A stretch of 64,000 bases of DNA from Halomonas sp. JB37 (GTDB lineage Bacteria; Pseudomonadota; Gammaproteobacteria; Pseudomonadales; Halomonadaceae): NCBI RefSeq assembly GCF_002332255.1, contig NZ_NRGW01000001.1, forward strand, positions 434,001 through 498,000, in the 5' to 3' direction. Shown here piece after piece: positions 5,278 through 38,883 of this stretch. Every line of letters starts with the position of its first letter. Positions within the stretch are counted from its first letter, which is position 1. The position numbers and the translations under genes are program-made. A model generated the notes under the pieces. It saw only the letters and a program-made list of their open reading frames with translations, did not search any database and was not told where the DNA came from.

Positions 5278-7347
5278 TTATCCAAGCAGTGAGCGCAGCC
5301 CGGCAATCGCGTCTTTACCCCGCGCCTGCTTCTTTTCAGGGTCTTCTTTATCCGCACGGCCTTCCCACTCTAAATCCTCGGCGGGCAGTTCTTCTAAAAA
5401 GCGGCTTGGCTGGCAATCCATCAGTTCTCCATAGGCTTTGCGCTGGCGGGCAAGCGTTAGCGTTAGCGTGCGGCGTGCTCGGGTGATGCCGACATACGCT
5501 AGTCGTCGCTCCTCCTCAACGGTGCCCACTTCAATTGCGTTGCGGTGAGGCAATAGGTCTTCTTCCAAGCCCAGCAGATAAACATGCGGAAACTCCAAAC
5601 CTTTCGAGGCATGCATCGTCAGTAGCTGCACTCGATCAGAGTCATCTTCTTCGGCCTGCTGTTCTAAAATATCGCGCAGCACTAGGCGTGAAATCGCGGC
5701 TTCAATGCCGTCGGTTTCCGTCTCAGTGGCATCGGTATCGTCTTCAGTGTCGCGGTTGAGCGACTTCTCTAGCTGATCGATCAAAATCCACACGTTGGCC
5801 ATGCGCCGCTCGGCGACGGTGGGCGCGCTGGCGTTTTGATACAGCCACGCTTCGTAATCCATATCCCGCAGCATGTCGCGAATGGCGGCAATGGCATCGC
5901 CTTGATCCATGCGTTTACGCACGCCATCAATAAAGTGGGTAAAACGCGACAGCCGCTCGACGGCCCGGGTTGGCAGAACCTGCTCCAAACCGAGCTCATG
6001 AGAGGCCGCAAACAGCGAAATTGAGCGCTCAGTCGCATAGTTGGCGAGCTTTTCAACCGTACCTGGGCCCACCTCACGGCGTGGCACGTTCACAATGCGT
6101 AAAAAGGCGTTGTCGTCAGCTGGGTTAATCAGCAGGCGCAGATAGGCCATGGTGTCTTTGATCTCGTTGCGCGAGAAAAACGACGTACCGCCTGAAAGCT
6201 TGTAAGGAATCTGGTAGTGCTGCAGCTTGAGTTCTAACAGCCGAGCCTGGAAGTTACCGCGATAAAGCACGGCAAAATCGCGCCAGTCGGCCTTTTCTTT
6301 AATACGCCGAGTCAGCATTTCGCTGGCGACGCGCTCAGACTCGGCCTCTTCATGGCGATTCACAATCACCCGAATAGGCGCACCGTCGCCCATATCTGAC
6401 CACAGCGTCTTGTCATAAATATGAGGGTTATTGGCGATCAGCGTATTGGCCGCGCGCAGTATCGTGGCGGTAGAGCGGTAGTTCTGCTCCAACTTGATCA
6501 CTTTCAGGCGCGGAAAGTCTTCACCCAGGGTAATAAGGTTTTCAGGGCGAGCGCCGCGCCAGGAATAAATCGACTGGTCATCGTCGCCTACCACGGTAAA
6601 GGTGGAGCGCTCGGCCATTAAAAGCTTCACCAGCAGGTATTGGGAAACGTTGGTGTCCTGATACTCATCTACCAGCATGTAATGAATTTTACGCCGCCAG
6701 CGCTCTAGCGCCTCCGGGTTGCGCTGTAGCAGTACCACCGGCAGCAGAATCAGGTCGTCAAAATCCACTGCGTTGTAGGCTTTTAGATGGCGCACGTAGG
6801 CTTCGTATACCCGTGCAGCAAAGTGCTCATCGTCATCTGCCGCAAATGAGAGTGCATCGCTGGGCAGCACTAAATCATTCTTCCAGGTGGAAATTTTGCT
6901 CTGCACGGCGTTGATCTGCTCGGCATCTACCTGGGCATCTTTGTTCATTAAATCGCGCAGCAGCGCCTTGGCATCTTCCGGGTCGAACAGTGAAAAGCCC
7001 GGCTTGTAGCCCAGTGTTTTCAGCTCACCGCGAATAATATTGAGCCCCAGTGTGTGGAAGGTAGAGACCGTTAGCCCGTGACCTTCTTTACCGTGAAGCA
7101 TCTGGCCCACGCGCTCTTTCATCTCACGCGCGGCTTTATTGGTAAAAGTGACCGCGGCGATCCTACGTGCGCTCATTCCACATTCTTGGACTAAATAAGC
7201 AATTTTAGTGGTGATAACGCTGGTTTTGCCCGACCCTGCGCCCGCCAACACTAAGCAAGGGCCATCAATGTAGCGCACGGCCTCTTGCTGGCGTGGATTT
7301 AGCCCTTTAATGCGGCTAAGAATGCTCTTAGGTGTTGAGGGCGTCAT
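5278..7347 (-). CDS. rep: ATP-dependent DNA helicase Rep
   Basis: 689-residue SF1A helicase of the Rep/UvrD/PcrA family, a 3'-5' translocase that removes protein roadblocks ahead of the replisome. Visible motifs are Walker A (GAGSGKT), Walker B (VDEYQDTN), motif III (GDDDQSIYSWRGA), motif IV (EQNYRS) and motif VI (VGITRARR). The N terminus GLNPRQQEAV and overall length match Rep better than UvrD. The chosen ATG at 7347 starts MTPSTPKS; a slightly longer in-frame ATG 30 bp upstream exists. It is monocistronic and convergent with the cytochrome c5 gene, as in Pseudomonas where rep is also close to a c5 gene. Confidence 0.92.
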   Translation of the reverse strand: MTPSTPKSILSRIKGLNPRQQEAVRYIDGPCLVLAGAGSGKTSVITTKIAYLVQECGMSARRIAAVTFTNKAAREMKERVGQMLHGKEGHGLTVSTFHTLGLNIIRGELKTLGYKPGFSLFDPEDAKALLRDLMNKDAQVDAEQINAVQSKISTWKNDLVLPSDALSFAADDDEHFAARVYEAYVRHLKAYNAVDFDDLILLPVVLLQRNPEALERWRRKIHYMLVDEYQDTNVSQYLLVKLLMAERSTFTVVGDDDQSIYSWRGARPENLITLGEDFPRLKVIKLEQNYRSTATILRAANTLIANNPHIYDKTLWSDMGDGAPIRVIVNRHEEAESERVASEMLTRRIKEKADWRDFAVLYRGNFQARLLELKLQHYQIPYKLSGGTSFFSRNEIKDTMAYLRLLINPADDNAFLRIVNVPRREVGPGTVEKLANYATERSISLFAASHELGLEQVLPTRAVERLSRFTHFIDGVRKRMDQGDAIAAIRDMLRDMDYEAWLYQNASAPTVAERRMANVWILIDQLEKSLNRDTEDDTDATETETDGIEAAISRLVLRDILEQQAEEDDSDRVQLLTMHASKGLEFPHVYLLGLEEDLLPHRNAIEVGTVEEERRLAYVGITRARRTLTLTLARQRKAYGELMDCQPSRFLEELPAEDLEWEGRADKEDPEKKQARGKDAIAGLRSLLG

Positions 7348-7478
7348 GGCGAAGGTAGTCCTCTGCGAGTGCTGCACGTTATTTCGCGTACGATTTTAAG
7401 TGCTATTTTAAGTGCTATTTCGATTACAATCGGCGGCGCTTAGTAAATGCATAACGGGTGAACAATAGGCAGGTGGAG

Positions 7479-7949
7479 ATGTTTGACGTAGCGCTTTTTG
7501 AACCACGCATGGCGCCCAATACAGGCAATATCATGCGCTTAGTCGCCAATAACGGCTGCCGACTTCACCTGATTGAGCCACTTGGCTTCGACTTAGAAGA
7601 GAAAAAACTGCGTCGCGCCGGGCTGGATTACCGTGACCTCGCCAACGTTACTCGCCACGCGGATTTTAGCGCCTTTCAAGCGGCCATGCAGGGCCGACGC
7701 ATCTGGGCGATTACCACCAAAGGTACGCGACCCTATAGCGATGCTGACTTTGCTCCCGGCGATGTGCTGCTATTTGGTTCTGAAACCGCAGGACTTTCGC
7801 CCCAAGTACATGAAGTGCTAACCGCTGAGCACAAGCTGCGCCTGCCCATGCAGCCCAACAACCGCAGTCTTAACCTTTCTAACGCCGTGGCTATTGTGAG
7901 CTACGAAGCATGGCGCCAACAAGGATTTGAAGGCGCGCTGCCCATCTAA
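7479..7949 (+). CDS. trmL: tRNA (cytidine(34)-2'-O)-methyltransferase TrmL
   Basis: 156-residue SPOUT-class methyltransferase, predicted to 2'-O-methylate the wobble base of tRNA-Leu isoacceptors using S-adenosylmethionine. It shows [15 protein letters not shown] near the N terminus and the trefoil-knot signature [20 protein letters not shown] near the C terminus, with the normal minimal SPOUT length. The ATG at 7479 follows GCAGGTGGAG; a GTG 21 bp upstream is possible but lacks a ribosome site. Its stop abuts the end of pyrE, with which it is convergent without any intergenic space. Confidence 0.93.
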
Positions 7950-8615
7950 TCAGCTGGCAATGCCGTAGCGATCACGATAAGCCCTAATCGCTTCCGCGTA
8001 GGCCAGCATCTCGCCACCGGCGTGTTCTTCAAGGTAAGTAAGCACTTGCTCTAAGGTAACGATACTCACCACCGGCATTGAATACTGTGCCTGTACTTCC
8101 TGAATCGCACTCTGTTCGCCCTGGCCACGTTCTTGACGATCAAGCGCAATGATCACCCCGGCAGCACGCGCGCCGCTTTGCTCAATCAGGCTCATTACTT
8201 CGCGAATCGCCGTGCCTGCGGTGATGACGTCATCAATAATGAGAATATTGCCGGAAAGCTCCGCGCCAACAATGTTGCCACCTTCGCCGTGGGTTTTGGC
8301 CTCTTTGCGGTTGAAGGCGTAAGGCATATCCTGGTCGTGGTGATCGGCCAAGGCTGCGGCCGTGACCGCCGCCAGTGGGATTCCCTTGTACGCTGGGCCA
8401 AACAGCACATCAGCGTTTAGGTCGCTATCGACAATCGCCTGAGCGTAAAACCGTCCCAGCTTGGCCAGCGCTCGGCCGGTTTGAAACAGCCCAGCGTTAA
8501 AAAAGTAGGGACTAACGCGACCGGATTTAAGCGTAAACTCGCCAAACTTAAGCACACCTTGCTCAATGGCAAAGGCAATGAAATCGTGCTGGTAGGGTTG
8601 TAGAGTGGTGGCCAC
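7950..8615 (-). CDS. pyrE: Orotate phosphoribosyltransferase
   Basis: About 221-residue type I phosphoribosyltransferase that converts orotate and PRPP to OMP in pyrimidine synthesis. It carries the PRPP-binding loop [11 protein letters not shown], the catalytic flexible loop [13 protein letters not shown] and the N-terminal signature [18 protein letters not shown] place the start at the GTG at 8615, behind GAGGA; a GTG at 8627 would overlap that ribosome site. It is divergent from crc (about 140 bp apart), and the pyrE-crc-rph grouping is the one known from Pseudomonas. Confidence 0.94.
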
Positions 8616-26376: not shown

Positions 26377-26462
26377 GTGATGCTTTTAAAGTGACGCCAT
26401 CCGTTGGGGTGGCGTTGGTTGATGGTGAAAAGTGTAGAGGCAAGAGAAATGAGTAGGATGGT

Positions 26463-26503
26463 CAAAAAATCGACTATTCACGGCATTGATTGCCGTGAAT
26501 AGT
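26463..26503 (-). terminator. Rho-independent terminator of the hsd-mkoC operon
   Basis: 13-bp perfect stem ACTATTCACGGCA / TGCCGTGAATAGT with a 5-nt loop. Read on the minus strand it is followed by CGATTTTTTGAC, a proper T run. It lies about 60 bp beyond the mkoC stop and has no T run on the plus side. Confidence 0.88.
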
Positions 26504-26564
26504 GACTACGTTAAGCCAGTATGGAAAATCTAAAATGGATAGTCGTATTGTTAAATGCAGTGTG

Positions 26565-29500
26565 TTATCTGAGTTCTTGCAGAGTTTCCGCTGTGCTAAA
26601 AGTTTGGTGGATACGTCCCTTTAACGCCTCAAGCTGAAGATTAATCTCTTCTGCAAGATTTCCGCTCCAAAGTACTGACGTTTCCATATTTTTATATTTA
26701 CCTGATCGAGCAGCGCTGGCCCAGTTGTAAGACCCAATACACATCAAACTCTCATCGATCATAATAAGTTTACTGTGCACTTGACTAACAACATTGACCG
26801 TTATTTTATATTCTGCAAGTGCCTTACAGCACTGCTTAAAATTGACCTTTTTATCTTCACAAGGCTGCTTTCCATTAAAGGTGTTGAAGTGCAAATCAGT
26901 ATAGATTTCTACCATAACGCCCCGGTCGGATGTTCGTTTTAATTCCTCTAAAAGCCCTGTCTCCTTTAACCGGTTTAATGATATCCAAGGGGAAACCATG
27001 GCAATGCGCTGTTGGACGCTTGTCAGTAATTCCTTCAAGTATTGATCATGCGCTTTCGAGTCGTTGATGATTTGCGGTGTTTGACACATCGCTAACAAAT
27101 CGGGACGTACCGCTTTTGCCGTGAAACACAGCTCATTATCCTCACTACTAAACAAATAACGGCCTAGCAAGTGTCGTGGCGTGCCCCGGGCCGCCATACC
27201 TATAACGTCCATATCGCCAAATACGATAAAACTGTCCTTAGCACGTGAGACAGCCACATTCAGAATCGATGGGTCATTGTCGATAAAATTGCCATCTTCG
27301 TGTCGTGAATATACCCCTGAAAACAGCACTACGGGACGTTCCGCGCCTTGCAGCGCATGCACTGTGCCTACCGTCATTTCTGCTTCGCCCCGGCCAATCT
27401 TGATATTGCGTGCTTGGCACTCCTGCTCAATCAAACTGGCCTGAGCCTTGAAGGGCGTCACCACGCCCACGATCTGTTCCAGCGGCTTATCATGAGCCGC
27501 TTCTAACTGCTCGCGTTGGGTCGCCAGCCATTCAGCCATAGTGATGGCTTCGAGCCGATTGATACGACTCCCCGAGGGTGGCGACTCGGCCCGGCCATCC
27601 ACATGCACATAACCAAAGGGCGGCAGTTCGGCATCAATAGCCGGCTTGACGCGCAGCGGTTGCAAAAGCCCGCGGTAACAGAGGTCGTTGCAGTAGGCGA
27701 TGATATCGTTCAGGCAGCGGCGATGCTCGCGCAGAAACATGCCCGGCTCGGCCTGTTCGAGATAATGGTAGCGGCTGGCCTTTTGCGCGATGCGCATTAC
27801 GCTGCCATCCACCACCGAACGGCCGCCTTCGCGCAACTCTTCGTATTCGTCCAAGGCTGAGATCAGGTCTTGATGCGAAAGATTGCCCACATCCACCGTC
27901 TGCGACTGCGTGGCCACCGGCTTGATCTGGTGCACATCGCCAATCGCCAGCACGCGCTTGGCCAGTGCGATGGAGGCACCCGCCACATCGGGCGCCACCT
28001 GCCCGGCCTCGTCGATAATCAACAGGTCGATCTCATTAATCAGGTAATCAAGCCGAAACTGCCCTGCGCCTTCGAAGACGCGATGGGTCATGTGGTCGGG
28101 CAACGAGTGCAGTGTCGATACGATGCAGGGCGTCAGCATCATGCGGCGTCGCCAGCGTGGGCGTACCTTGGCTAGCCCCGGTTTCTCCTTGCCTGTGGCT
28201 GTCTGCTCGGCCAGTTCGTCAGCACGCGTGGCGCAATCCTCCAGCCAGCGCGACTCCCAGTAGTGCACCGCCAGTTGAAAGAGCTGAAAGCGTAGCGTGG
28301 TATCCAGCTCCTGATCAAAGGCGTCAAACGAGTCCGGTAGCGTCTCGAAACCCAGCGCTCGATAGGCGGTATCAAGCCGTTCGGTGACCTGCTCGATTTC
28401 TTGAAGCCCGTGCTGGCATTCGGCCACAAAGGCTTGTTGCTGTTCTATGGCCTCGCGCTGCCCGCCAAGCCAACCCTTTAATGCGGCCTCGGGCGTACTC
28501 GCTGGTGATGCCTGTTCGATCAGCCGCCGCGCCTCGGCGCTCAACTGCTCGCTAATGAAAAGCTCACGGCGTAGTTGGCGCTTTTTGGCCACCGGGGGTA
28601 GCACGGCGAGCAGCGATAGCCACATCGGTTCCTCGGCGCAAAAGCGCTGCCAGCGCTTGAGGTCCGCTTCGATGGCGTCGCGTTCAGTGTGCAGTGTGGT
28701 AATCGCCGCCTTCTTGCGGGCCAGTGCCTCCTCAGGCGCATCGCCTAGTTTCTCAATCAGCTGCGCCTGAAGCGCCGCTCGTTTCGTCCAACCCTGTTGA
28801 AGGGTGGCGAGCCGGGCTTGTCTGTCGCTCAGCCGCTGGTGAAGCTGCGCGCGGACGCTGTCGATACGTGTGAGCGTGGCATCTCCGAGCGCCTCCTGGG
28901 CATGCTCTAAAAATACTGCCTCGGCGCTATCGAGATACTCGGGGGATTCGACCCGGCGATAAAACGTCGGGGTTTGATAATGCTGGGAAGCCTCGCCTTC
29001 CTTGCTGGGGGCAGGGTAGTAGCCGCCGTAGCTGGTGACCTCGGGCAGCCAGCGCCCGCCGAAAGCGTCCTGGGTTTCCTCGAAATCCTTGGCGAAGGCT
29101 TCGAGCACATTGGTCACGGCCTGGTTGTTGGTGGAGGCTGCCACGATCAACGGTGGATCTTCTTCATTCAGCGCGGCCTTTACCCACCGCGAAGCCACGG
29201 CCGAGAGCACGAACGTCGTTTTGCCGGTGCCCGGCGGGCCGTTGACTGCCAGCACCTCGCCGTCTTCCATCGCCATGACCTGCGCCAGCGCATCGCGCTG
29301 GGCAATGGCCAGCGGGTACTGCGAATTGGCGTGGCCCAGCCGATGGGGCATGCTCGCGAACGGCTCAATGCACGGCTGGTATGTCTCGATGCGTGAAAGC
29401 GCGTAGCTTTCAACCAGCGGCAACCGTTGATCGTTTTGGGAGAGCCAGTCGTAAAGGGCGATGATCTTGTCCGCGGCGCCCAGCTGGTCATCGACCTTGG

Positions 29501-30131
29501 CAATGCGCGCCTCAGAGGCGTTTTCGAACGCCTCTCTCAGCAGCTCTTTCGGGCAGAGCGTTTCGAACAGTTGGCGCGAAAGGTCGTAATACGTCTTCCA
29601 GCGCTCGCTGTGCGCTTCGGGGTCGGATTCCTCGAGTAGCGCCCGCGCCTCGCTCTCCGACCATACCGGCGGCTCATGCCTGCTCAAAAAGCGATCCTGC
29701 CTGGCGACATCGGTCAGTGTGAAGCGATCATCGGCCTGGGGCGCCAGCAGGTCGCGCGGAATCACCGGCGGCTCGGCGGGGATCATGCGCCCATCGCGCG
29801 CGACCCACAAACCGCAGATCAACGGCGTGATCACGTCGGGGTAGAGTGCCCGTTTTTTCGCCCCGTGCTCCAGCAGTGCCTTGTACACCGCCGGGCGTAG
29901 CACAACGCGCACGAGTTGAGTGGCTTCCTTTTCTCCCTTGAAAAGCCGCTGGAGTACCGAGTGATGCGCGGGTAGCCGCCCTTCGCGGTATACCGTGCTC
30001 TCGAGCTGCTCTGTTTGTTCCAGCTCTTTTTTGGTCAACGTTCCGCGGCCACTCTCGGCGTCCGCCAGCGAATTGCGCCAGTAACGAAGCCACTGTTTGG
30101 CCGTGGGGCGGGAGGTATCTGCCTGGCTCAT
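26565..30131 (-). CDS. mkoC: Mokosh type II-like defence protein: SF1 helicase fused to PLD nuclease
   Basis: 1188-residue fusion. The UPF1/COG1112-like SF1 helicase shows a Q-motif region (AIAQRDALAQV), Walker A GPPGTGKT (298-305), Walker B IIDEAGQ (705-711), GDVHQIKPV, VGTVHALQGAE and motif VI NVAVSRAKD (958-966). A charged, probably coiled-coil insertion of about 190 residues (410-600) separates motifs Ia and II. The C-terminal 170 residues form a phospholipase-D nuclease half-site, HSKLIMID at 1119-1126 followed by GSYNW; only one HKD is evident, so it should dimerise. A single-protein RNA-helicase plus PLD is the published description of Mokosh type II. Its ATG overlaps the hsdS stop (ATGA). 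The name rests on architecture, not on a search. Confidence 0.75.
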   Translation of the reverse strand: MSQADTSRPTAKQWLRYWRNSLADAESGRGTLTKKELEQTEQLESTVYREGRLPAHHSVLQRLFKGEKEATQLVRVVLRPAVYKALLEHGAKKRALYPDVITPLICGLWVARDGRMIPAEPPVIPRDLLAPQADDRFTLTDVARQDRFLSRHEPPVWSESEARALLEESDPEAHSERWKTYYDLSRQLFETLCPKELLREAFENASEARIAKVDDQLGAADKIIALYDWLSQNDQRLPLVESYALSRIETYQPCIEPFASMPHRLGHANSQYPLAIAQRDALAQVMAMEDGEVLAVNGPPGTGKTTFVLSAVASRWVKAALNEEDPPLIVAASTNNQAVTNVLEAFAKDFEETQDAFGGRWLPEVTSYGGYYPAPSKEGEASQHYQTPTFYRRVESPEYLDSAEAVFLEHAQEALGDATLTRIDSVRAQLHQRLSDRQARLATLQQGWTKRAALQAQLIEKLGDAPEEALARKKAAITTLHTERDAIEADLKRWQRFCAEEPMWLSLLAVLPPVAKKRQLRRELFISEQLSAEARRLIEQASPASTPEAALKGWLGGQREAIEQQQAFVAECQHGLQEIEQVTERLDTAYRALGFETLPDSFDAFDQELDTTLRFQLFQLAVHYWESRWLEDCATRADELAEQTATGKEKPGLAKVRPRWRRRMMLTPCIVSTLHSLPDHMTHRVFEGAGQFRLDYLINEIDLLIIDEAGQVAPDVAGASIALAKRVLAIGDVHQIKPVATQSQTVDVGNLSHQDLISALDEYEELREGGRSVVDGSVMRIAQKASRYHYLEQAEPGMFLREHRRCLNDIIAYCNDLCYRGLLQPLRVKPAIDAELPPFGYVHVDGRAESPPSGSRINRLEAITMAEWLATQREQLEAAHDKPLEQIVGVVTPFKAQASLIEQECQARNIKIGRGEAEMTVGTVHALQGAERPVVLFSGVYSRHEDGNFIDNDPSILNVAVSRAKDSFIVFGDMDVIGMAARGTPRHLLGRYLFSSEDNELCFTAKAVRPDLLAMCQTPQIINDSKAHDQYLKELLTSVQQRIAMVSPWISLNRLKETGLLEELKRTSDRGVMVEIYTDLHFNTFNGKQPCEDKKVNFKQCCKALAEYKITVNVVSQVHSKLIMIDESLMCIGSYNWASAARSGKYKNMETSVLWSGNLAEEINLQLEALKGRIHQTFSTAETLQELR

Positions 30132-31525
30132 GTCGTCGTCTTCTTCCTTGTACGTTTTTTGGGCGCCTGCGCCGCCCGCTCTTCCTTAATGCGTGCCAGC
30201 AGCGCCTTGGCGCTGTTCTCGCCGCTGATTAGTGCCGGGTTGTCTTTGCGCCACTGCTCGGTCAACTCGCCACGGAACGCCTTGGCGAGGATCGACTGGG
30301 TAAGCTGGTTGACGCGTGCGAAGGCGCTATTGACCTGGCGCTCGACGGTGTCGGCGTAGGCAAAGAGCTGATCGGCGCGGCGAACGATTTCGGTTTGTTC
30401 TTCAAGAGTTGGTAAATCCAGCATGCAGCTTTTCACATCATTTTGATTAATGCTTGCTTGATTCACTGCAAGTTTTGCATTGGCTCGTAGTTGCTCTAGG
30501 CCGACCGGACTTCTCAAGAATAGAGAGATAAATTCTGGCTTTGCTAAGCCTCTTTTGAGAGATAGCCGCATGATGTTGCTTTCAAAAACAACTGGTTCTA
30601 CCAAGTCTTTTACTAATGCACTTTTCCCAAGATACTCAATACTATTTACACGATTAACAAGGATATCACCCTTGTTGATTTGCCATTTTTCGATCTCTGA
30701 TAGCGACAGTTGAACCCTTTTTAGCTCTTTCCAATCAGCGATAAGCCCGTCATAAAAACTATCGATTCGGATAATTAAACACCCAGAGCCATACAGCTTG
30801 GTTGGCTTATAAACTCCGTTCTGAGGTCCACTTTCAACAAGATGACCGAGTGATACTGTTTGCCATTCATGATTTGTTGAGTATTTTTTGTGCCACTCCT
30901 CCGTCAACCGCCCAGTCACCGCCGCCGCAAGCACAGATTGGCGGAAGCATTTGAGAATCTCGGGAATGCGCTCAAGGCGGGCTTTGGTGTTGTCCACCTG
31001 GGCCAGCAGTGTGTCGAGTTTGTCGGCTATGATTTTTTGTTCGGCGAGGGGAGGCAAGATAAAAGGTAGCTTCTTGGCATTCGCACCTGAAATCTCTTTG
31101 AATGTTGTACCCGTCCCCATACTTTCTGCAATGTCCCGGATGCTACGCAAGAAATAGTACGCGTAACTCGGCTCGATTTTGGATGGCATGACGAAGTTCT
31201 TGAATCCCTGGTTCGTCGATATTTCGTTCGCAGCCACAGCGACATAACCGATTGGCGCGCGGCTACTAAAGAGTAATGTGCCTGTGGGCATCTTCTTTGC
31301 TGAGCATTTTTCATAACCTTTTGCGCTGAGATCTCGTGCACCATGGGCGATGTATTTCTCCGCGTACTTACTTAGGTCGGCTGGGGTTAGCCAAGCGATT
31401 TGGGTTTCCGGCTTGGCAAAGTTGTCAGGATCGCTTGCTTTTGGTGTGCCCCCAGCAATCACATCGGCAACTTCGCCAATTAAAAGGGAGAGCCATTGTT
31501 CGGGGATCTGCAGGCTGTCAGTCAC
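30128..31525 (-). CDS. hsdS: Type I restriction-modification specificity subunit HsdS
   Basis: 465-residue specificity subunit. Two target-recognition domains (about residues 10-145 and 215-350) alternate with conserved helical spacers, each opened by a matching block (LPPLAEQKIIADKLDTLL and LPTLEEQTEIVRRADQLF) and ending in TGRLTEEW or RGELTEQW. It starts with GTG, overlapping the hsdM stop by 4 bp, and its stop overlaps the mkoC start. The recognition-domain parts look more AT-rich than the spacers (24 of 60 G+C at 30541-30600 against 37 of 60 at 30181-30240), as expected when these domains are exchanged. The target sequence cannot be predicted. Confidence 0.93.
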   Translation of the reverse strand: MTDSLQIPEQWLSLLIGEVADVIAGGTPKASDPDNFAKPETQIAWLTPADLSKYAEKYIAHGARDLSAKGYEKCSAKKMPTGTLLFSSRAPIGYVAVAANEISTNQGFKNFVMPSKIEPSYAYYFLRSIRDIAESMGTGTTFKEISGANAKKLPFILPPLAEQKIIADKLDTLLAQVDNTKARLERIPEILKCFRQSVLAAAVTGRLTEEWHKKYSTNHEWQTVSLGHLVESGPQNGVYKPTKLYGSGCLIIRIDSFYDGLIADWKELKRVQLSLSEIEKWQINKGDILVNRVNSIEYLGKSALVKDLVEPVVFESNIMRLSLKRGLAKPEFISLFLRSPVGLEQLRANAKLAVNQASINQNDVKSCMLDLPTLEEQTEIVRRADQLFAYADTVERQVNSAFARVNQLTQSILAKAFRGELTEQWRKDNPALISGENSAKALLARIKEERAAQAPKKRTRKKTTT

Positions 31526-33201
31526 TGGTTGCCTCCCATCATCTGGTTGATAATGGCTCGCCGCCCATCTGCCTTATCCTCTGCTCCTAATTCCCGCATC
31601 AGCGCGTCCAGTTCGCCCAGCGCTTGCACCAGTTCGCTCATGGCCTCACCCGCCAGCACGCTGGGTTCGGGCAGGTTGGCGGCGTCGATGCTGTCTTTGT
31701 CCTTCAGCCAGCTGATATCCAATGAGTCGCTTTTGGTGTCGCTAATCCACGCGCGACTGAAACAGCGCCAGCGGGATTTGGCCAGGCGGTCATCGTTCAC
31801 GCCCTGGTTTTCGTCGGTGGTGTCGGTATCTACTGCGATTTCTTCCGCATTAAACGACCATTCGCCTTCTTGGCGTTCACTGAGCACGTTTGCGAAGGCT
31901 TCGCCCGTCGCTCCCGGCATCCTGCCTCCCGCGACATTCGCACTTCCCTGTGCGTCATACACCGCTTCGAACGGCTTTAAGTGCTGTTCGCCGAACGGCG
32001 TGCGCTTGCCGAAGCTGGGCATATTGGTGCGCAGGTCGTAGACCCAGACATTCTCGGTGCAGCGCTCTTCCTGGTACTTATCGGTGGCGCTACCCTTGGT
32101 AAAAAACAGCACATTGGTCTTCACACCCTGGGCGTAAAATATGCCGGTGGGCAGGCGCAGAATGGTGTGCAGGTTGCACTTGTCCATCAGGTCGCGGCGC
32201 ACGTCCGCGCCCACGCCTGCCTCGAATAGCACGTTATCCGGCAGCACCACTGCGGCGCGGCCGCCGGGCTTCAGGTTGCGGTAGATGTGCTGCAGGAAGG
32301 CAAGCTGCTTGTTGCTGGTCTTAAACGTGAGGTCGTCGCGAGTGATGCTGGCATCGCCGCCTTTGCTGGTGCCGAAGGGCGGGTTGGCGAGTATTACATC
32401 GGCTTTGGCGAGGCTTGCGCCTGCCTGGCCCAGGGCGTTGCCAAGAAGGACGACGCCATCTTCGCCGCCTTCCATGCCGTGTAACAAGCAATTCATTAGC
32501 GCCAAACGACGAGTGCCGGGCACTAGCTCAATGCCCACAAAGGCTTTGTTTTGCTGGAACAGCTGCTGCTGGGCGTCCAGGTCGGCGAGGTCGTCGGTGT
32601 GCTCTTTAATGTACTGATCGGTAGCGGTTAAAAAGCCCGCCGTGCCCGCTGCAGGGTCTTGAATCAGCTCGCCGTGTTGAGGCTTCACGCAGCGCACCAT
32701 GCTGTTGATCAGTTCACGCGGGGTGAAGTACTGCCCGGCGCCGGACTTGGTCTCGTTGGCGTTCTTTTCAAGTAGCCCCTCGTACAAATCGCCCAGGCCA
32801 TCTTCCTGGGCGCTGAACCAGTCGATGCCGTCGAGCGCCTTGATCATCTGCTCCAGATGGCGCGGTTCGCGCAGGCGGGTTTGCGCATCGGCGTACACCG
32901 CGCTAATCAGCGGGTCGGTATGAACCAAGCGGCCGGTGCCGTCGCGGCCACTGGAAAGGCTGAGTAGAATACGCTTGTAGTCGTCCAGCAGGTTAATGCC
33001 GGATTTATGGTTTAGGTCCGTCCAGCGGCAGCCTTCCGGCAGCGGGTGCTTTTTCAGGGTGCCTGCTTCGGTGTTCTCATGCACCATTTTGATAAACAGC
33101 AGTAGCACCAGCTCGGTGACGTAGTCGGAGTAGTTGATGCCGTCATCGCGCAGTACGTCACACAGGTTCCAGAGTTTTTGAACGATGTCGTTATTGGTCA
33201 T
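31522..33201 (-). CDS. hsdM: Type I restriction-modification DNA methyltransferase HsdM
   Basis: 559-residue N6-adenine methyltransferase. An N-terminal helical domain (HsdM_N) precedes the SAM-binding motif DPAAGTAGFL (182-191) and catalytic NPPFG (273-277), the gamma-class order. GAGQYFTPREL near 155-165 is also typical. With HsdS it makes the M2S methylase and with HsdR the restriction complex. A 167-bp gap with its own promoter-like sequence separates it from hsdR, so methylation may be expressed independently of cleavage. Confidence 0.95.
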   Translation of the reverse strand: MTNNDIVQKLWNLCDVLRDDGINYSDYVTELVLLLFIKMVHENTEAGTLKKHPLPEGCRWTDLNHKSGINLLDDYKRILLSLSSGRDGTGRLVHTDPLISAVYADAQTRLREPRHLEQMIKALDGIDWFSAQEDGLGDLYEGLLEKNANETKSGAGQYFTPRELINSMVRCVKPQHGELIQDPAAGTAGFLTATDQYIKEHTDDLADLDAQQQLFQQNKAFVGIELVPGTRRLALMNCLLHGMEGGEDGVVLLGNALGQAGASLAKADVILANPPFGTSKGGDASITRDDLTFKTSNKQLAFLQHIYRNLKPGGRAAVVLPDNVLFEAGVGADVRRDLMDKCNLHTILRLPTGIFYAQGVKTNVLFFTKGSATDKYQEERCTENVWVYDLRTNMPSFGKRTPFGEQHLKPFEAVYDAQGSANVAGGRMPGATGEAFANVLSERQEGEWSFNAEEIAVDTDTTDENQGVNDDRLAKSRWRCFSRAWISDTKSDSLDISWLKDKDSIDAANLPEPSVLAGEAMSELVQALGELDALMRELGAEDKADGRRAIINQMMGGNQ

Positions 33202-33318
33202 GAGGTTCCTAGGGCGATAAAAAGCGATTGAAGCGCTGACATGGTTAGAAAAGGCCGAAATCTTTGCACGTTACTGAGCACATGTTAAGAAAAGCCGGTT
33301 TTCTATATATGTGGCGTC

Positions 33319-33341
33319 TCGTCATAAAAGCGCTATGACGA
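33319..33341 (-). promoter_or_regulatory. Inverted repeat and possible internal promoter between hsdR and hsdM
   Basis: Perfect 8-bp inverted repeat TCGTCATA / TATGACGA with a 7-nt spacer, in an AT-rich stretch ahead of hsdM. On the transcribed strand a TATATA-like -10 element follows the repeat about 17 bp later. The T run lies before, not after, the hairpin in the minus direction, so this is not a terminator for hsdR; an operator or promoter fits better. Confidence 0.4.
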
Positions 33342-33368
33342 AAAAATACTAAAAACTATATAGCGCGG

Positions 33369-36300
33369 TCATGCACTTTTGGGCGGCCACATTGCCTCAT
33401 TCAGCTCTTCCAGCACACTGTCCAATTGCTCGCCCAGCACTTTATCCAGTTGCTTAGCACCGCCTTGAAAGGCGGGGAGCTGGTTGACGGTATCCCGGTC
33501 GAGAATCACTTCCTTGGTGAGCTGTTTGGCCAGTTTTCCCAGCCACTTGCGTTGGTTGGGCGTCCAGTCGTGCTGGGTGTAGAGGCGATCCATGGCATCG
33601 GCGACGCGCTGTTCAAATGGTTTTAACGGCTCGCCGAGGGCGGCGCGGCGGATATGGCCGATGATGCTGGCGGCAATATCCTGATTGGTGTGGTTGCGCA
33701 CGGCGCTTTGCAGGTTGGCTTCCGAGTAGCCGTGGTTATCCAGCAGCACTTTGACGTCTTTCAACTGCGATCGGGTAAGATCGCGGGGTTGGTTGACCAC
33801 CACGGCTAGGGCAGCGGATTGGTTGATCTGCTCTTTGATAAACGCATTGAAGCTATCCAGATAGTCTTCCGGGCGTTTATGAACGCCGTAGCTCTGGCTG
33901 CGCTCGCGAATCTCATCGTCGTGGTCGGAAATCACCGGCATACGTTCGCTGCCCACCAGGTGCTTCACCTCTGCTAGCTGGTGTATCAGGCCGCTATGCT
34001 GGCGAAGAAACGCGGATGCCTGCCTTGGGCCCAGCTTATGTAAGTGCTCATGGAGTTTTTTCGGCTCCACCCCCCATAGGCTTTGAAGATCACTCAGTTT
34101 TTGTTTAAGCGCAGGTTTGTTTTCCGCTTTGGTGTCGGCCTTACGCAGTACGCGCATGACTTTTTGACTGAGCTGGTTCAGCACGACATCGGCCTGGCTC
34201 TCACCCTGCTGTTCGCCAGGGCTATTGAGTGAGTTTTCCAACTGGTGCTCATCGGTCAACTCATCGACTAGCTGTGCAAGGCTGATATTGGGGTCGCGCA
34301 CCAGCGGCTGCATGGTGTTGACCTCCGCCAGGGCGGCGTAGATATCCACCGGGTCGTAGATGGTGAACACGGTCTTGCCGATCTCATCGCAGCGGCGGGT
34401 GGCGCGGCCTATCATCTGTTCAAAAAGAATCCGTGAGCGCACTTGGCGCATAAACACCAAGTGGCAAATTTTGGGCACGTCGATGCCGGTGGTGAGTAGG
34501 TCGACGGTAATCGCGATATTGGGGTAGCGCTCGTTTTTATAGCGGCGAATCAGCTGAGCGACTTTGTCGCTTTTACCGGTGATTTTAGCCACCGCTGCCT
34601 GGTGGTAGCTGCCGTTATAAAGCGCTTTGAAAGCGTCATCCAGCAGACGTTTGACCATATCGGCGTGGAGGTCGGTGGCGCAGAAAATCAGCGTTTTTTC
34701 GTCGCCAAACGGGTCGAGCTCTTCGGCCAGTTGCTCACAGATCACGCGATTAAAGTTTTCGTTGATGACCTGGCGATTGAAGGCGTCAACGTCAAAGCGC
34801 AGTTCGTCTTCGAGTTCGCTGGTATCCACTTCGCCGGTTTGGGTGTTGATGACCTCAATGGGCTTACCCTTCTCAAACAGTATGCCTTCTTGGGTCAGCA
34901 GGGTTTCATAGCGTATGGGCGGTTCGTGGTCGATCAGCCAGTCATCCGCTACCGCTTCCCGATAGGAGTAGGTGTACACCGGCTTACCAAAAATCTCGCT
35001 GGTATGCTTGGCCGGGGTGGCGGTGAGCGCGATTTTGACCGCATCGAAGTAATCAAGCACCCGGCGGTAGCTGGAGAGGTACTGGCTAGCGTCGCGGGTG
35101 GCCAGCTCGCCTTCGGTCATCTCCTGGTCGAGCGTGTAGCCGCGGTGGGCTTCGTCGATAATGATGCAATCGAATTGATCAATCGGCGGTGCCTGGTCGC
35201 TCATAAAAATGCGCTTCACCATGGCCTGCACGGTGGCCACCTGCACGCGGGTTTCGGCTTCTGCCGCCATATCGCCCAGTTCTGCCACGTTGTAGATCTT
35301 GCTTAGGGTTTGGTTCTGCTCTAACGGGGCTTCGTTGAAGGCGTCAATGGCTTGATCGCCAAGGGCGGTACGGTCAACCAAAAACAGAATGCGGTGAAAG
35401 CGTTCGGTTTTTAGAAACCGGTACATAAGACCAATAATGGTGCGGGTTTTACCGGTACCTGTGGCCATGGCCAGCAGGGCCGCGCGGCTGCCGTGGGCCA
35501 GTGCGTGCTCGGTGGCGAGAATCGCTTTTTGCTGATACTCCCTTAACCGCAGGTAACCGAAGGGCTCGTGTTTGAGCAGCTTGTCGGCGTTTTCTCTATC
35601 GCGTTCCAGCAGGTTTAACAGGCCACCGGGGGTATGAAAGCGAGGTAAGGCGCGGCGTGTGTTACTGGGTTCTCGCACATCGCGAAACCAGGTGCCCGAC
35701 TGTTCGGCTAGCTGGGGGAGATAGGGGCGGCCGTTACAGGAGTACACAAAGGGCACTTTGAAGTGGCCCTCTTCATCGGCGGGCCAGGCAATGGTTCGCC
35801 CTACTAATTCCCAGGCCCCCACCAGCGGTGGCTCAACGCTGAGTCCTTTGCTGTAACGCTCAGATTGATCAATTTTGCCCGCGACATTGATGTTTTCTTT
35901 TTTGGCTTCAACCACGGCAATCGGTGTTAAACCGCAAAATAGCACGTAGTCTGCTCGTTCTTTTTGGCCATTGCCGCGATGCGCGGGCAGTGTAGGCCAT
36001 TCAGCAATGGCTCGGTAGGTGCCTTTCTCGGGGCGGGCACCCTTTTGATAGCTGATCTCTTGGCTGTCGGCTTCCCAGCCTGCTTCATTAAGCTGCTGGT
36101 CAATCAGTATGCGCGTTAACTCTTCACTCAGCGCCAAGGTGTCGCTGGCGGCTTTGGTTTTGCTGGCTACCTGTTGGCGCTGCTGATTAACGCTGCTTTC
36201 GCCCTGGGCGGTGAGCTGTGTTTGCAGGGCTTGAATCTTGGCTTCGTAAGCGTGCTGCTGCTGGGCTAATGTTTTTTCATGGCTTTGGGCCTGTTCGGCC

Positions 36301-36902
36301 AGGGCACGGGACTCTTCATCCATGGCCAATGCCAGTGCCTCGTACTCCTGCTTCTCTTGCTCGACCAGCTGGCTAAGCTGCTGGCTGCTGTCCAGTGCCT
36401 TGTTGGCGTGTTGAAGCTCGTGGCGGAGCTTTTCAATATCGCTTTGAAGCTGGCGCGACTGCGCGCTTGGGTCGGCGGGCGGTACAAAAGGGCCGGGTTT
36501 GAAGGTGGTGCCTTCCTTACCAAACGAGCGGTGAAACCAGATAGCCAGTGCGCGGGCCAGCTTCAGGCCATCCATGGCTTCTTTGTGACGGGTGCGAAAC
36601 TGGTGAGTGGCTTTGTTGCCTTCAATGCGCAGAGTGTGAAATAGCTCTTTTACTTGAGGTTCTAGACGCAGCTCGCGGTTTAAGCGGTAGAGTAGGTCGG
36701 CTTGGCTGGTTTGATCGTCAAACTCAACCCCGGAGATCGCCGCCATATGCTGGGCAAGCGCTTCCCCCAATTGGCGCAGTTTGATCAAGGTGGTGTTGGG
36801 ATCGCTAACAAAGGCGTGTTCGGCGGCGGCGGTCAGCTCGACAAACAGCGCATCATGCTCTGCTAAAAAGCCAAAGTTGCTGGGAGGATAGGGCGATGTC
36901 AT
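33369..36902 (-). CDS. hsdR: Type I restriction endonuclease subunit HsdR
   Basis: About 1177-residue motor and nuclease subunit. Numbered from the ATG at 36902: a DUF4145 domain (about 15-125), a long coiled coil (150-255), a PD-(D/E)xK nuclease (Asp318 and VVEAKK at 331-336), and an SF2 translocase with Walker A MATGTGKT (479-486), DEAH (583-586) and motif VI QMIGRATRR, followed by a helical C-terminal region. The ATG is preceded by GGAGAG; an in-frame start 18 bp upstream is less likely. It is the first gene of the defence operon. Confidence 0.94.
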   Translation of the reverse strand: MTSPYPPSNFGFLAEHDALFVELTAAAEHAFVSDPNTTLIKLRQLGEALAQHMAAISGVEFDDQTSQADLLYRLNRELRLEPQVKELFHTLRIEGNKATHQFRTRHKEAMDGLKLARALAIWFHRSFGKEGTTFKPGPFVPPADPSAQSRQLQSDIEKLRHELQHANKALDSSQQLSQLVEQEKQEYEALALAMDEESRALAEQAQSHEKTLAQQQHAYEAKIQALQTQLTAQGESSVNQQRQQVASKTKAASDTLALSEELTRILIDQQLNEAGWEADSQEISYQKGARPEKGTYRAIAEWPTLPAHRGNGQKERADYVLFCGLTPIAVVEAKKENINVAGKIDQSERYSKGLSVEPPLVGAWELVGRTIAWPADEEGHFKVPFVYSCNGRPYLPQLAEQSGTWFRDVREPSNTRRALPRFHTPGGLLNLLERDRENADKLLKHEPFGYLRLREYQQKAILATEHALAHGSRAALLAMATGTGKTRTIIGLMYRFLKTERFHRILFLVDRTALGDQAIDAFNEAPLEQNQTLSKIYNVAELGDMAAEAETRVQVATVQAMVKRIFMSDQAPPIDQFDCIIIDEAHRGYTLDQEMTEGELATRDASQYLSSYRRVLDYFDAVKIALTATPAKHTSEIFGKPVYTYSYREAVADDWLIDHEPPIRYETLLTQEGILFEKGKPIEVINTQTGEVDTSELEDELRFDVDAFNRQVINENFNRVICEQLAEELDPFGDEKTLIFCATDLHADMVKRLLDDAFKALYNGSYHQAAVAKITGKSDKVAQLIRRYKNERYPNIAITVDLLTTGIDVPKICHLVFMRQVRSRILFEQMIGRATRRCDEIGKTVFTIYDPVDIYAALAEVNTMQPLVRDPNISLAQLVDELTDEHQLENSLNSPGEQQGESQADVVLNQLSQKVMRVLRKADTKAENKPALKQKLSDLQSLWGVEPKKLHEHLHKLGPRQASAFLRQHSGLIHQLAEVKHLVGSERMPVISDHDDEIRERSQSYGVHKRPEDYLDSFNAFIKEQINQSAALAVVVNQPRDLTRSQLKDVKVLLDNHGYSEANLQSAVRNHTNQDIAASIIGHIRRAALGEPLKPFEQRVADAMDRLYTQHDWTPNQRKWLGKLAKQLTKEVILDRDTVNQLPAFQGGAKQLDKVLGEQLDSVLEELNEAMWPPKSA

Positions 36903-37058
36903 TACATTTACTCTCCACATCTTTGCAAATTGGCTATTCCGCCGCTGTTATATATAAAACTCATACTAATAGAACAGAGGCTTAGTAGTTAAGTCTACTT
37001 TTGAGGGTTAGCGGTGTAAGAGAGGCTTCAAACACTTTTTGATAACGGTGGCTCCATC

Positions 37059-37089
37059 TCAATTCGAGAGACACTGTCTCTCGAATTGA
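37059..37089. repeat. 31-bp inverted repeat upstream of hsdR
   Basis: Perfect 14-bp arms beginning TCAATTCGAGAGAC, with only ACT as loop. No T run follows on either strand. It lies about 155 bp before hsdR and 115 bp before the histidine phosphatase gene, in a 301-bp spacer that otherwise shows no gene. It could be an operator, an mRNA-leader hairpin or the trace of an insertion. Confidence 0.75.
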
Positions 37090-37203
37090 AAAGCGCTGGT
37101 AAAACTGCTGCATATTGCACAAATTGGTGACATTGAATCCCTTTCCCAGCCTCTCGGTTGTTGCACTCGCTGCTGCTTACCTTTAACTGATTGAGGATGG
37201 CCC

Positions 37204-37779
37204 ATGCCCACCCTACGCCACTTCACCTTCACTCTGCTGCTAAGCGTGCTGGTCATCCTGCCCATCAGCACACAGGCAAACGAAACAACCTGGCAGGCGC
37301 TTAAAGAGGGCGACTTAGCCATTTTAATGCGCCACTCCTTGGCCCCTGGCATTGGCGATCCGCCGGGCTTTGAGCTTTCTCAGTGCGATACCCAACGCAA
37401 TCTCTCTGCTCAGGGTCGCGACCAGGCGAAAGCCGTTGGTCGTACCTTTCGCGAGCGGGATATTCCCATTGCGGCGGTGTACTCATCAAGCTGGTGCCGT
37501 GCACTGGAAACCGCTGAGCTAATGGCGCTGGCGCCTGTAATGCCTACTCCCTGGCTGGATTCGTTCTTTCGCGGGCGCGGTGATCAGGCGCAAATCACTC
37601 AAACCGCCCAGCAGCAGATCGCCGCATGGAAAGGGCCGGGCAATTTGCTGCTGGTTACCCATCAGGTGAATATCACAGCGCTGGTGGGCCGTGGCGTAGG
37701 CTCTGGCGAGATGATTGTGGTGCGTCCCACGGATAATTCGTTTCAAGTAGTGGGGCGGTTAAACGTTAGCGGTGACTAA
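37204..37779 (+). CDS. Exported histidine phosphatase family protein
   Basis: 191-residue protein with a signal peptide (TLLLSVLVILPISTQA) and a histidine-phosphatase (phosphoglycerate-mutase-like) domain. The active-site block reads ILMRHSLAPG, in which the usual RHG/RHA has become RHS; the second histidine lies in LLVTHQVNI. An acidic or basic partner is seen in SSWCRALETAE. Cell-envelope location and phosphomonoesterase activity are inferred; the substrate is unknown. It stands alone between the defence operon and the alcohol dehydrogenase gene. Confidence 0.78.
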   Translation: MPTLRHFTFTLLLSVLVILPISTQANETTWQALKEGDLAILMRHSLAPGIGDPPGFELSQCDTQRNLSAQGRDQAKAVGRTFRERDIPIAAVYSSSWCRALETAELMALAPVMPTPWLDSFFRGRGDQAQITQTAQQQIAAWKGPGNLLLVTHQVNITALVGRGVGSGEMIVVRPTDNSFQVVGRLNVSGD

Positions 37780-37842
37780 TTCGCTTCTTACCCACGTAAG
37801 CAGTTATAAAGTAAAAAAAGCGAAAACGTTTAGGAGACCTTG

Positions 37843-38883
37843 ATGAAGGCCGTTGTTTTTGAGCAGTTTTCCGCCCCGCCGAGTATTCAGCAGTTGCTTG
37901 ATCCGACGCCTGAACCTCACGGCGTGGTGGTGAAAGTGATGGCGAACGGCGTGTGCCGCAGCGATTGGCATGGCTGGGTGGGGCATGATACCGATATCCA
38001 GCTTCCCCATGTGCCGGGCCATGAGCTGGCAGGCGTAGTCGAAGCCGTTGGTAAAGATGTAAAGCAATGGCGCGTTGGCGACCGCGTCACTGTGCCGTTC
38101 GTGGGTGGCTGTGGCACTTGTCCTGAGTGTCACTCGGGCAACCATCAGGTGTGCGATAGTCAGTTTCAGCCCGGCTTCACCCACTGGGGATCCTTTGCCG
38201 AGTATGTGGGTATTCACTACGCCGATGTGAATTTGGTCGCGCTGCCGGAGACACTCGACTTTGCGACCGCGGCCAGCCTGGGCTGTCGGTTTGTCACTTC
38301 CTTTCGGGCGGTAGTCGATAAGGGCCAAACATCGGCTGGGCAGTGGGTGGCCGTTCATGGCTGCGGCGGTGTTGGTCTATCCGCCGTAATGATTGCCAAC
38401 GCCATCGGTGCCAACGTCGTTGCCATCGATATTTCGGAAGAGGCGCTTAATCTGGCTCGTCAATTAGGCGCCGTTGCCACGGTGAATGCCGCCAAGGTGG
38501 CCAATGTGGTGGAAGCGGTAACGGAAATAACCCGGGGAGGCGCTCATGTATCGCTGGATGCGCTAGGTCATCCAACGACCTGTGTTAACTCCATCAGCAA
38601 CCTGCGTAAACGGGGCAAGCATATTCAGGTGGGGCTGATGCTGGCGGACCACAGCACGCCAGCCATCCCGATGAGTAAGGTCATTGCCAACGAGCTTGAA
38701 ATACTCGGCAGCCACGGCATGCAGGCGCATCGTTATGACGCCATGCTGGCGATGATTCAGTCTGGCAAGCTGGCGCCGGAAAAGCTGATCGGCAAACGCA
38801 TCACCCTTGAACAGTCGATTGATGCGTTGATGAACATGGATAAGTTTGAAGGGGCGGGTGTGACGGTGGTGACCGAGTTTTGA
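37843..38883 (+). CDS. Zinc-dependent alcohol dehydrogenase
   Basis: 346-residue medium-chain dehydrogenase. Catalytic zinc ligands lie in [10 protein letters not shown] and PGHELAG, the structural zinc cluster in [17 protein letters not shown], and the NAD-binding motif is [13 protein letters not shown]. The ATG at 37843 follows AGGAGACC. NAD specificity is suggested by the acidic residue in NVVAIDIS. It is monocistronic, so the alcohol oxidised cannot be inferred from context. Confidence 0.9.

Follow-up and report, generated by a model that had tools for sequence, protein, structure and literature searches.

What is a 1188-residue helicase-nuclease gene doing inside a type I restriction-modification (R-M) operon, and does its product serve the R-M enzyme or act on its own? 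The question is raised by a 64,000-nt stretch of Halomonas sp. JB37 DNA (contig NZ_NRGW01000001.1), hereafter the window, in whose numbering all positions are given. On its minus strand lie hsdR, hsdM, hsdS and, as the fourth gene, mkoC (26565 to 30131), as the original prediction, made from the sequence alone, had described. We regard it as probable, from sequence comparison, that MkoC works independently as a second defence, is expressed along with the R-M enzyme and is exchanged as cargo, and that the position directly behind hsdS is a slot for exchangeable cargo in the type I R-M operons of the Halomonas family. The locus is more interesting for this slot than for the overlap of its genes.

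By all the sequence features tested, the fourth gene encodes a Mokosh type II protein. Its product matches the PADLOC MkoC profile over its full length (1249.6 bits, residues 11 to 1171 of 1188, profile positions 5 to 1133 of 1136), and the second-best PADLOC profile is MkoA at 116.6 bits. The Pfam families AAA_11, AAA_12 and PLDc_2 score over their cut-offs, giving SF1 helicase domains and a C-terminal PLD domain in one chain. Motifs that we take to be Walker A (GPPGTGKTT, residues 298 to 306), DEAGQ (707 to 711), SF1 motif VI (NVAVSRAKD, 958 to 966) and HKD (H1119, K1121, D1126, G1133, S1134 and N1136) are present, and their residues are invariant in an alignment of 13 MkoC relatives. The solved structures that best match MkoC by sequence are UPF1-type helicases, which align with the helicase core alone. 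The full-length profile match, the Pfam domains, the invariant motifs and the UPF1-type core together support the identity, and the earlier description of the protein as Mokosh II-like held when scored with PADLOC. In the part of a review table available to us, Mokosh I and II are both given a PLD-like domain (PMC10952713). The window copy thus resembles Mokosh type II in its full-length match, its combination of SF1 helicase and C-terminal PLD in one protein and its intact motifs; it differs in lying inside a type I R-M operon with its start within hsdS, whereas no hsd gene adjoins mkoC in the other loci read.

The adjacency of hsdS and mkoC is not a peculiarity of one genome. Of 201 genomes sampled from the family, 7 carry MkoC (search threshold 1e-50) and 29 a close HsdM (threshold 1e-100); the two named relatives found are both Halomonas genomes. 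In five of these 29 related hsd operons, from different species, mkoC lies directly behind hsdS (the window, L002, L003, L024 and L026), although in L026 it is broken into two open pieces. Therefore, the possibility that the arrangement is unique to this genome was rejected, and the survey that the original prediction had proposed, for hsdS followed by a helicase-PLD gene, came out in its favor. The ATGA overlap is kept in all five mkoC operons and in all nine intact hsd-helicase operons examined. One more locus, L095, repeats part of the G174 operon where contig ends overlap; neither the tree nor the count of 29 includes it. In L002, hsdS itself occupies two open frames of 234 and 238 amino acids with a 4-bp overlap (L002:8587-10004), resembling two half-HsdS proteins.

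In the other related operons, the place behind hsdS is taken by different genes. Next to the five MkoC genes, the 29 operons carry there a PLD-less SF1 helicase of about 1075 amino acids (4), the PADLOC candidate families PDC-S26 (3) and PDC-S62 (3), Septu-type genes (3, comprising two PtuA/PtuB (Septu) pairs and one PtuA-like pair), DUF3800 proteins (2) or a UvrD-like helicase (1), and eight are empty or hold unnamed open frames. One member per family was scanned, two for the PLD-less helicase, PtuA-type and DUF3800 families, and the rest were assigned by BLAST cluster. Between hsdR and hsdM lies another slot (slot A, 33202 to 33368, 167 bp), which the window leaves vacant. Fic or AbiL genes fill it in 20 of the 29 operons, as SoFic-type Fic genes (14) or an AbiL/RloB-like pair (6), with nothing or something else in the remaining 9; these genes belong to the operons of relatives and not to that of the window. 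The Fic count comprises 13 cases found by script and one added on recheck (L090, where hsdR was not called), whose product is 30% identical to the L024 Fic protein (E 2e-43). Several cargo genes besides MkoC match abortive-type systems. In L079, an open frame at 7204-8247 on the minus strand, in operon orientation, looks transposase-like by eye and lies between the AbiL-type pair and hsdM.

On the HsdM tree (29 rows), the slot behind hsdS requires at the fewest 15 changes with rare cargo and empty slots as own states, 13 with Septu-type genes merged and the rest scored none, or 8 with the five named families only (18 rows); the hsdR-hsdM slot requires 9, or 8 after the Fic recheck. The boundary of cargo exchange is sharp. 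L024 and L076 are sister operons on the HsdM tree (support 99/96) and share 92% DNA identity across hsdR, fic and hsdM; their homology resumes in the 3′ end of hsdS and ends 10 nt past its stop, where one carries mkoC and the other the PLD-less helicase gene. Among operon pairs kept because they align to within 60 nt of the hsdS stop, a lower bound set by construction, the 286 without the same named cargo (pairs with empty slots included) all stop aligning by +55 nt after hsdS, whereas each of the 23 that share a cargo stays alignable for more than 1.3 kb. The six longest alignments between different cargo pair MkoC with the PLD-less helicase. The first 14 nt of these two genes agree at 70% on average, as against 27% in the control; four of the 14 are the shared ATGA, and comparison of the MkoC and PLD-less helicase profiles aligns the helicase core alone. 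A crossover at the gene start would account for this agreement, but is not proven.

Whether the helicase genes ever lived apart from hsdS could be addressed with loci that lack an intact operon. L025 (a broken gene, in the same family) and L030 (in another family of the order) encode MkoC 74 to 76% identical to that of the window and lie outside hsd operons. In an MkoC tree of 21 rows, both belong to the operon-linked clade (support 100/100, and 97/100 with L002). A clear hsdS remnant precedes the L025 gene (78 to 79% identity over about 90 nt, E 2e-15); that before the L030 gene is weak, spanning 34 nt (E 5e-4) if the start codon is counted and 23 nt (E 0.002) if it is not. The PLD-less helicase, a weak match to the MkoC profile (212 to 218 bits), occurs in 9 of 181 family genomes, four of which are the intact hsd operons; the loci include L074:11664-14894, L094:11955-15170, L075, L076, L155 to L157 and L159. 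In L155, L156, L157 and L159, an hsdS tail, the ribosome-binding sequence and the ATGA start are retained before the helicase gene, the L157 case being weak (E 5e-4). In L158:9791-12726, hsdS codons run in frame into the PLD-less helicase as the result of a deletion, and a remnant of the hsdR end lies upstream. L155 holds a second, distantly related hsd gene set several kb upstream. L159, which lies within 3 kb of a contig end, looks as if a deletion had taken hsdM and most of hsdS. The peptide NEEALIN before its hsdS tail resembles by eye the slot-A Fic protein (NEEILIN in L024).

Taken together, hsdS remnants precede all seven helicase genes that have no intact hsd operon directly upstream (two of two for MkoC and five of five for the PLD-less helicase, L030 and L157 being weak), and none of 29 other MkoC loci used as a control, with starts estimated from the alignment. 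Since remnants precede every gene without an intact operon, it appears that in the near MkoC and PLD-less families each sampled helicase gene sits, or once sat, behind hsdS. The retention of the start region in the orphans suggests that this region is needed, whereas the indels in what was the hsdS frame point to HsdS coding being dispensable; because these are one-base indels, ungapped comparison of the orphan tails exaggerates their erosion. The PLD-less helicase was also searched across the class, with no match in 158 genomes at 1e-150, a result that shows little as the sample was without genomes known to carry the gene. This family is possibly an undescribed defence gene.

Beyond the near clade, MkoC occurs without adjoining hsd genes in the loci read. 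Thirty-one MkoC loci, several of them short and L025 and L030 among them, lack an intact operon of the Halomonas hsd type. Two of these showed hsd-like genes, which in neither case adjoin mkoC: about 2.3 kb downstream in L098, an E. coli island, and about 5 kb upstream in L113. As the hsd queries were drawn from two R-M systems, distant genes of this kind may have escaped. With the enteric mkoC DNA of a Salmonella record (L042) as query, at least 80% of the query is covered in 833 of 5426 E. coli genomes. Six of the eight full-cover E. coli matches listed were read; five lie behind tRNA-Phe and an integrase gene (one of them frameshifted) and the sixth is L098. In four plasmid contexts, no R-M gene appears in the flanks shown, the gene tables being incomplete. 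As E. coli, plasmid and other loci lack adjoining hsd genes, MkoC does not seem to need an R-M operon in general, and the idea that it requires an R-M partner everywhere was rejected on the same evidence. Relatives of MkoC without adjoining hsd genes exist, whereas the window copy sits in an operon. The final third or so of the enteric mkoC DNA is matched at about 69% by the E. coli gene yjhR ('helicase YjhR'), which therefore looks to be a Mokosh II relic or relative.

How mkoC would be translated can be read from the end of hsdS. A purine-rich ribosome-binding sequence, AAGGAAGAAG (30140 to 30149, minus strand), lies among the hsdS codons, 8 nt upstream of the mkoC start codon, and forms part of the codons for Arg-Lys-Lys in the HsdS tail. 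Its predicted anti-Shine-Dalgarno pairing of -5.4 kcal/mol equals the median of 311 baseline open frames; the site is therefore an ordinary one, placed inside hsdS. Across the 15 helicase starts tested, the predicted pairing lies between -4.2 and -7.2 kcal/mol. Of 21 other hsdS ends, counting the duplicate L095, 12 fall short of -3 kcal/mol and nine reach -4.4 or stronger. Binding strength was thus rejected as a clean marker of helicase-bearing ends. The genes also overlap by 4 bp at two junctions, GTGA at hsdM/hsdS (31522 to 31525) and ATGA at hsdS/mkoC (30128 to 30131), as the original prediction had reported. It had considered the resulting translational coupling the unusual part of the locus. 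Translation of mkoC from a ribosome-binding sequence inside hsdS agrees with the sequence, and coupling is plausible; its exceptional character does not survive, since embedding is already known and 4-bp overlaps are ordinary, being shared by 7 of 29 same-strand neighbor pairs in the window and 53 of 237 in the 29 related loci (counts from a simple open-frame caller, hsd pairs and L095 included). For the same reason, the overlap was rejected as remarkable in itself.

The mechanism that we favor is as follows. A genuine Mokosh type II effector occupies a fixed slot directly behind hsdS and would be translated from the ribosome-binding sequence in the hsdS 3′ codons, started by the ATGA overlap; from these two features, we infer expression together with the R-M enzyme. 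During infection, the SF1 helicase motor may load on abnormal nucleic acid, and the C-terminal PLD domain may cleave the nucleic acid so loaded. Single-HKD nucleases usually act as dimers. Recombination at the conserved hsdS 3′ end would replace the cargo with other defence genes. An autonomous module is preferred to a dedicated R-M partner because the cargo of the slot is interchangeable and MkoC occurs elsewhere without adjoining hsd genes. The composite defence put forward in the original prediction, in which restriction and a nuclease aimed at RNA or replication intermediates would be made in fixed ratio, is accordingly kept here as a conjecture.

Several observations weigh against this reading. 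The hsd-linked MkoC clade has, by the tree, one origin, and therefore the five operons do not represent five independent captures. The mkoC copy of G121 is disrupted next to hsd open frames that look intact, which makes mkoC dispensable there. The ribosome-binding sequence is average, and some hsdS ends without helicase cargo score equally high. The counts of cargo changes vary with cargo coding and are raw minima, and the HsdM tree on which they were made is weakly resolved among Halomonas rows.

Genes embedded in type I operons are known, and one of them offers an alternative reading. PrrC is described as embedded in the type I operon EcoprrI in the portions of two papers at hand (PMC3874165, PMC12707154), where it forms, like mkoC in the window, an extra nuclease gene within such an operon. 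By analogy with PrrC, MkoC could be silenced by Hsd, or sense it, and be released when a phage inhibits restriction. We consider this unlikely, even though the layout recalls PrrC in a type IC operon, every sampled gene of the two helicase families has, or seems formerly to have had, hsdS in front of it, and several other cargo genes match abortive-type systems. PrrC is an anticodon nuclease whereas MkoC is a helicase-PLD protein, to which Hsd silencing carries over from the PrrC layout only by analogy. Like a PrrC-type guardian, mkoC in the window lies within, or is coupled to, a type I operon; however, association with R-M is not kept across the protein family but only in the near clade, remnants included. 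MkoC relatives in E. coli, plasmids and other chromosomes have no adjoining hsd genes, unrelated proteins occupy the slot, and orphans persist after loss of hsdRM. A further argument comes from TgvAB, which, according to the accessible sections of one report, is embedded in a type I R-M (T1RM) operon of Vibrio cholerae VPI-2, occurs inside and outside such operons, and when embedded still protected with T1RM restriction mutated (PMC11411939). TgvAB thus resembles the MkoC case as a second defence system in a type I operon found both in and out of such operons, and differs in being a type IV modification-dependent restriction pair.

It is less probable still that the hsdS 3′ end is merely a good landing and expression site, with no functional interaction, and that the cargo is kept for its own benefit. 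The cargo variety, the exchange boundary at the hsdS stop, the variable chromosomal site and the broken mkoC of G121 would all agree with this. In contrast, most of the nameable cargo is defence-related, which a neutral site would not select, yet defence genes cluster in islands anyway. That MkoC is an added R-M subunit processing DNA ends from HsdR translocation or cleavage is very improbable, for although it combines SF1 helicase and nuclease domains in a logic presumably like that of RecBCD and holds a fixed position behind hsdS, 24 of the 29 related operons do without it and full-length MkoC is found with no hsd genes seen nearby.

To return to MkoC as autonomous cargo, some elements of this picture have precedents. 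The available text of one paper sets out a general hypothesis of coupling in which toxins are repeatedly displaced at R-M loci (PMC3506569). The RRDM island of enteropathogenic E. coli (EPEC) carries DarTG2 between hsdS and hsdR, and in the part of the report seen its authors note a potential recombination hotspot (PMC12255303); it shares with the window a defence cargo adjoining hsdS, and differs in its toxin-antitoxin cargo, its gene order and its dedicated repressor, RptR. Defence genes embedded in type I R-M operons (PrrC, TgvAB, DarTG2) are therefore already known. A literature search on Mokosh, MkoC and hsd-embedded genes gave no Mokosh inside an hsd operon among the matches listed, most subscription journals lying outside its coverage. 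Nor did the listed matches cover four further points, which therefore appear to be new: the carriage of MkoC as cargo, the PLD-less helicase, the comparison of two slots and of the boundary at which exchange occurs, and the start region that the orphans have kept from hsdS.

A broader scheme, which we offer tentatively as improbable, is that Halomonas-family type I operons serve as a two-slot chassis. The hsdS 3′ end would give both a ribosome-binding site and a crossover point, and swappable modules (Mokosh, PLD-less helicases, Septu and others), with Fic or AbiL in the other slot, would guard the cell when restriction is evaded or inhibited. From one odd adjacency there follows a testable rule, namely that defence modules should be sought directly behind hsdS and between hsdR and hsdM. 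L024 and L076, similar operons with different helicases, provide a natural pair for distinguishing autonomy of the cargo from a guard of restriction. The comparison also brought to light the PLD-less helicase family as a possible undescribed defence gene.

The remaining features of the window complete the operon. The type I R-M set is complete, with hsdR, hsdM and hsdS carrying their domains (PADLOC, Pfam). The restriction subunit gene hsdR (33369 to 36920, minus; PADLOC, NCBIfam) probably starts at 36902, where an internal ATG agrees with the relatives' start MTSP.. and where the original prediction had placed the end of the locus; HsdR alone among the operon proteins reaches an NCBIfam cut-off. 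It is followed on the same strand by the methyltransferase gene hsdM (31522 to 33201; PADLOC, Pfam) and the specificity gene hsdS (30128 to 31525; PADLOC, Pfam), which has a GTG start and the mkoC ribosome-binding sequence in its last codons. Directly 3′ of mkoC, a terminator-like hairpin of 13 pairs (26503 to 26473, minus) runs into the T-run CGATTTTTTG and agrees with the terminator proposed for the end of the gene set. When both strands were scanned, 22 such sites were found, whereas shuffled sequences gave 16.6 on average, which leaves this longest site as the only persuasive one. RNA families scanned across the window gave none at gathering score.

The operon lies in a variable site (26389 to 38668), with flanks 92 to 93% identical to those of the close relative G162. 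A clean empty site was rejected, as G162 carries other genes there: in its locus L144, the hsd operon, a phosphatase gene and most of an alcohol dehydrogenase gene give way to about 7 kb of genes that by eye look catabolic and transport-related. In two of the mkoC operons, a YhcG/DUF1016 nuclease gene (PADLOC PDC-S02) lies just upstream of hsdR at L002:249-1307 (scanned) and L003:459-1526 (by eye). Downstream of some operons, an IrrE-type peptidase gene is followed by a DUF4411 gene (L075:15050-16677, scanned; L073 and L077, by eye), and L095/L096 carry, by eye, the first gene of this pair only.

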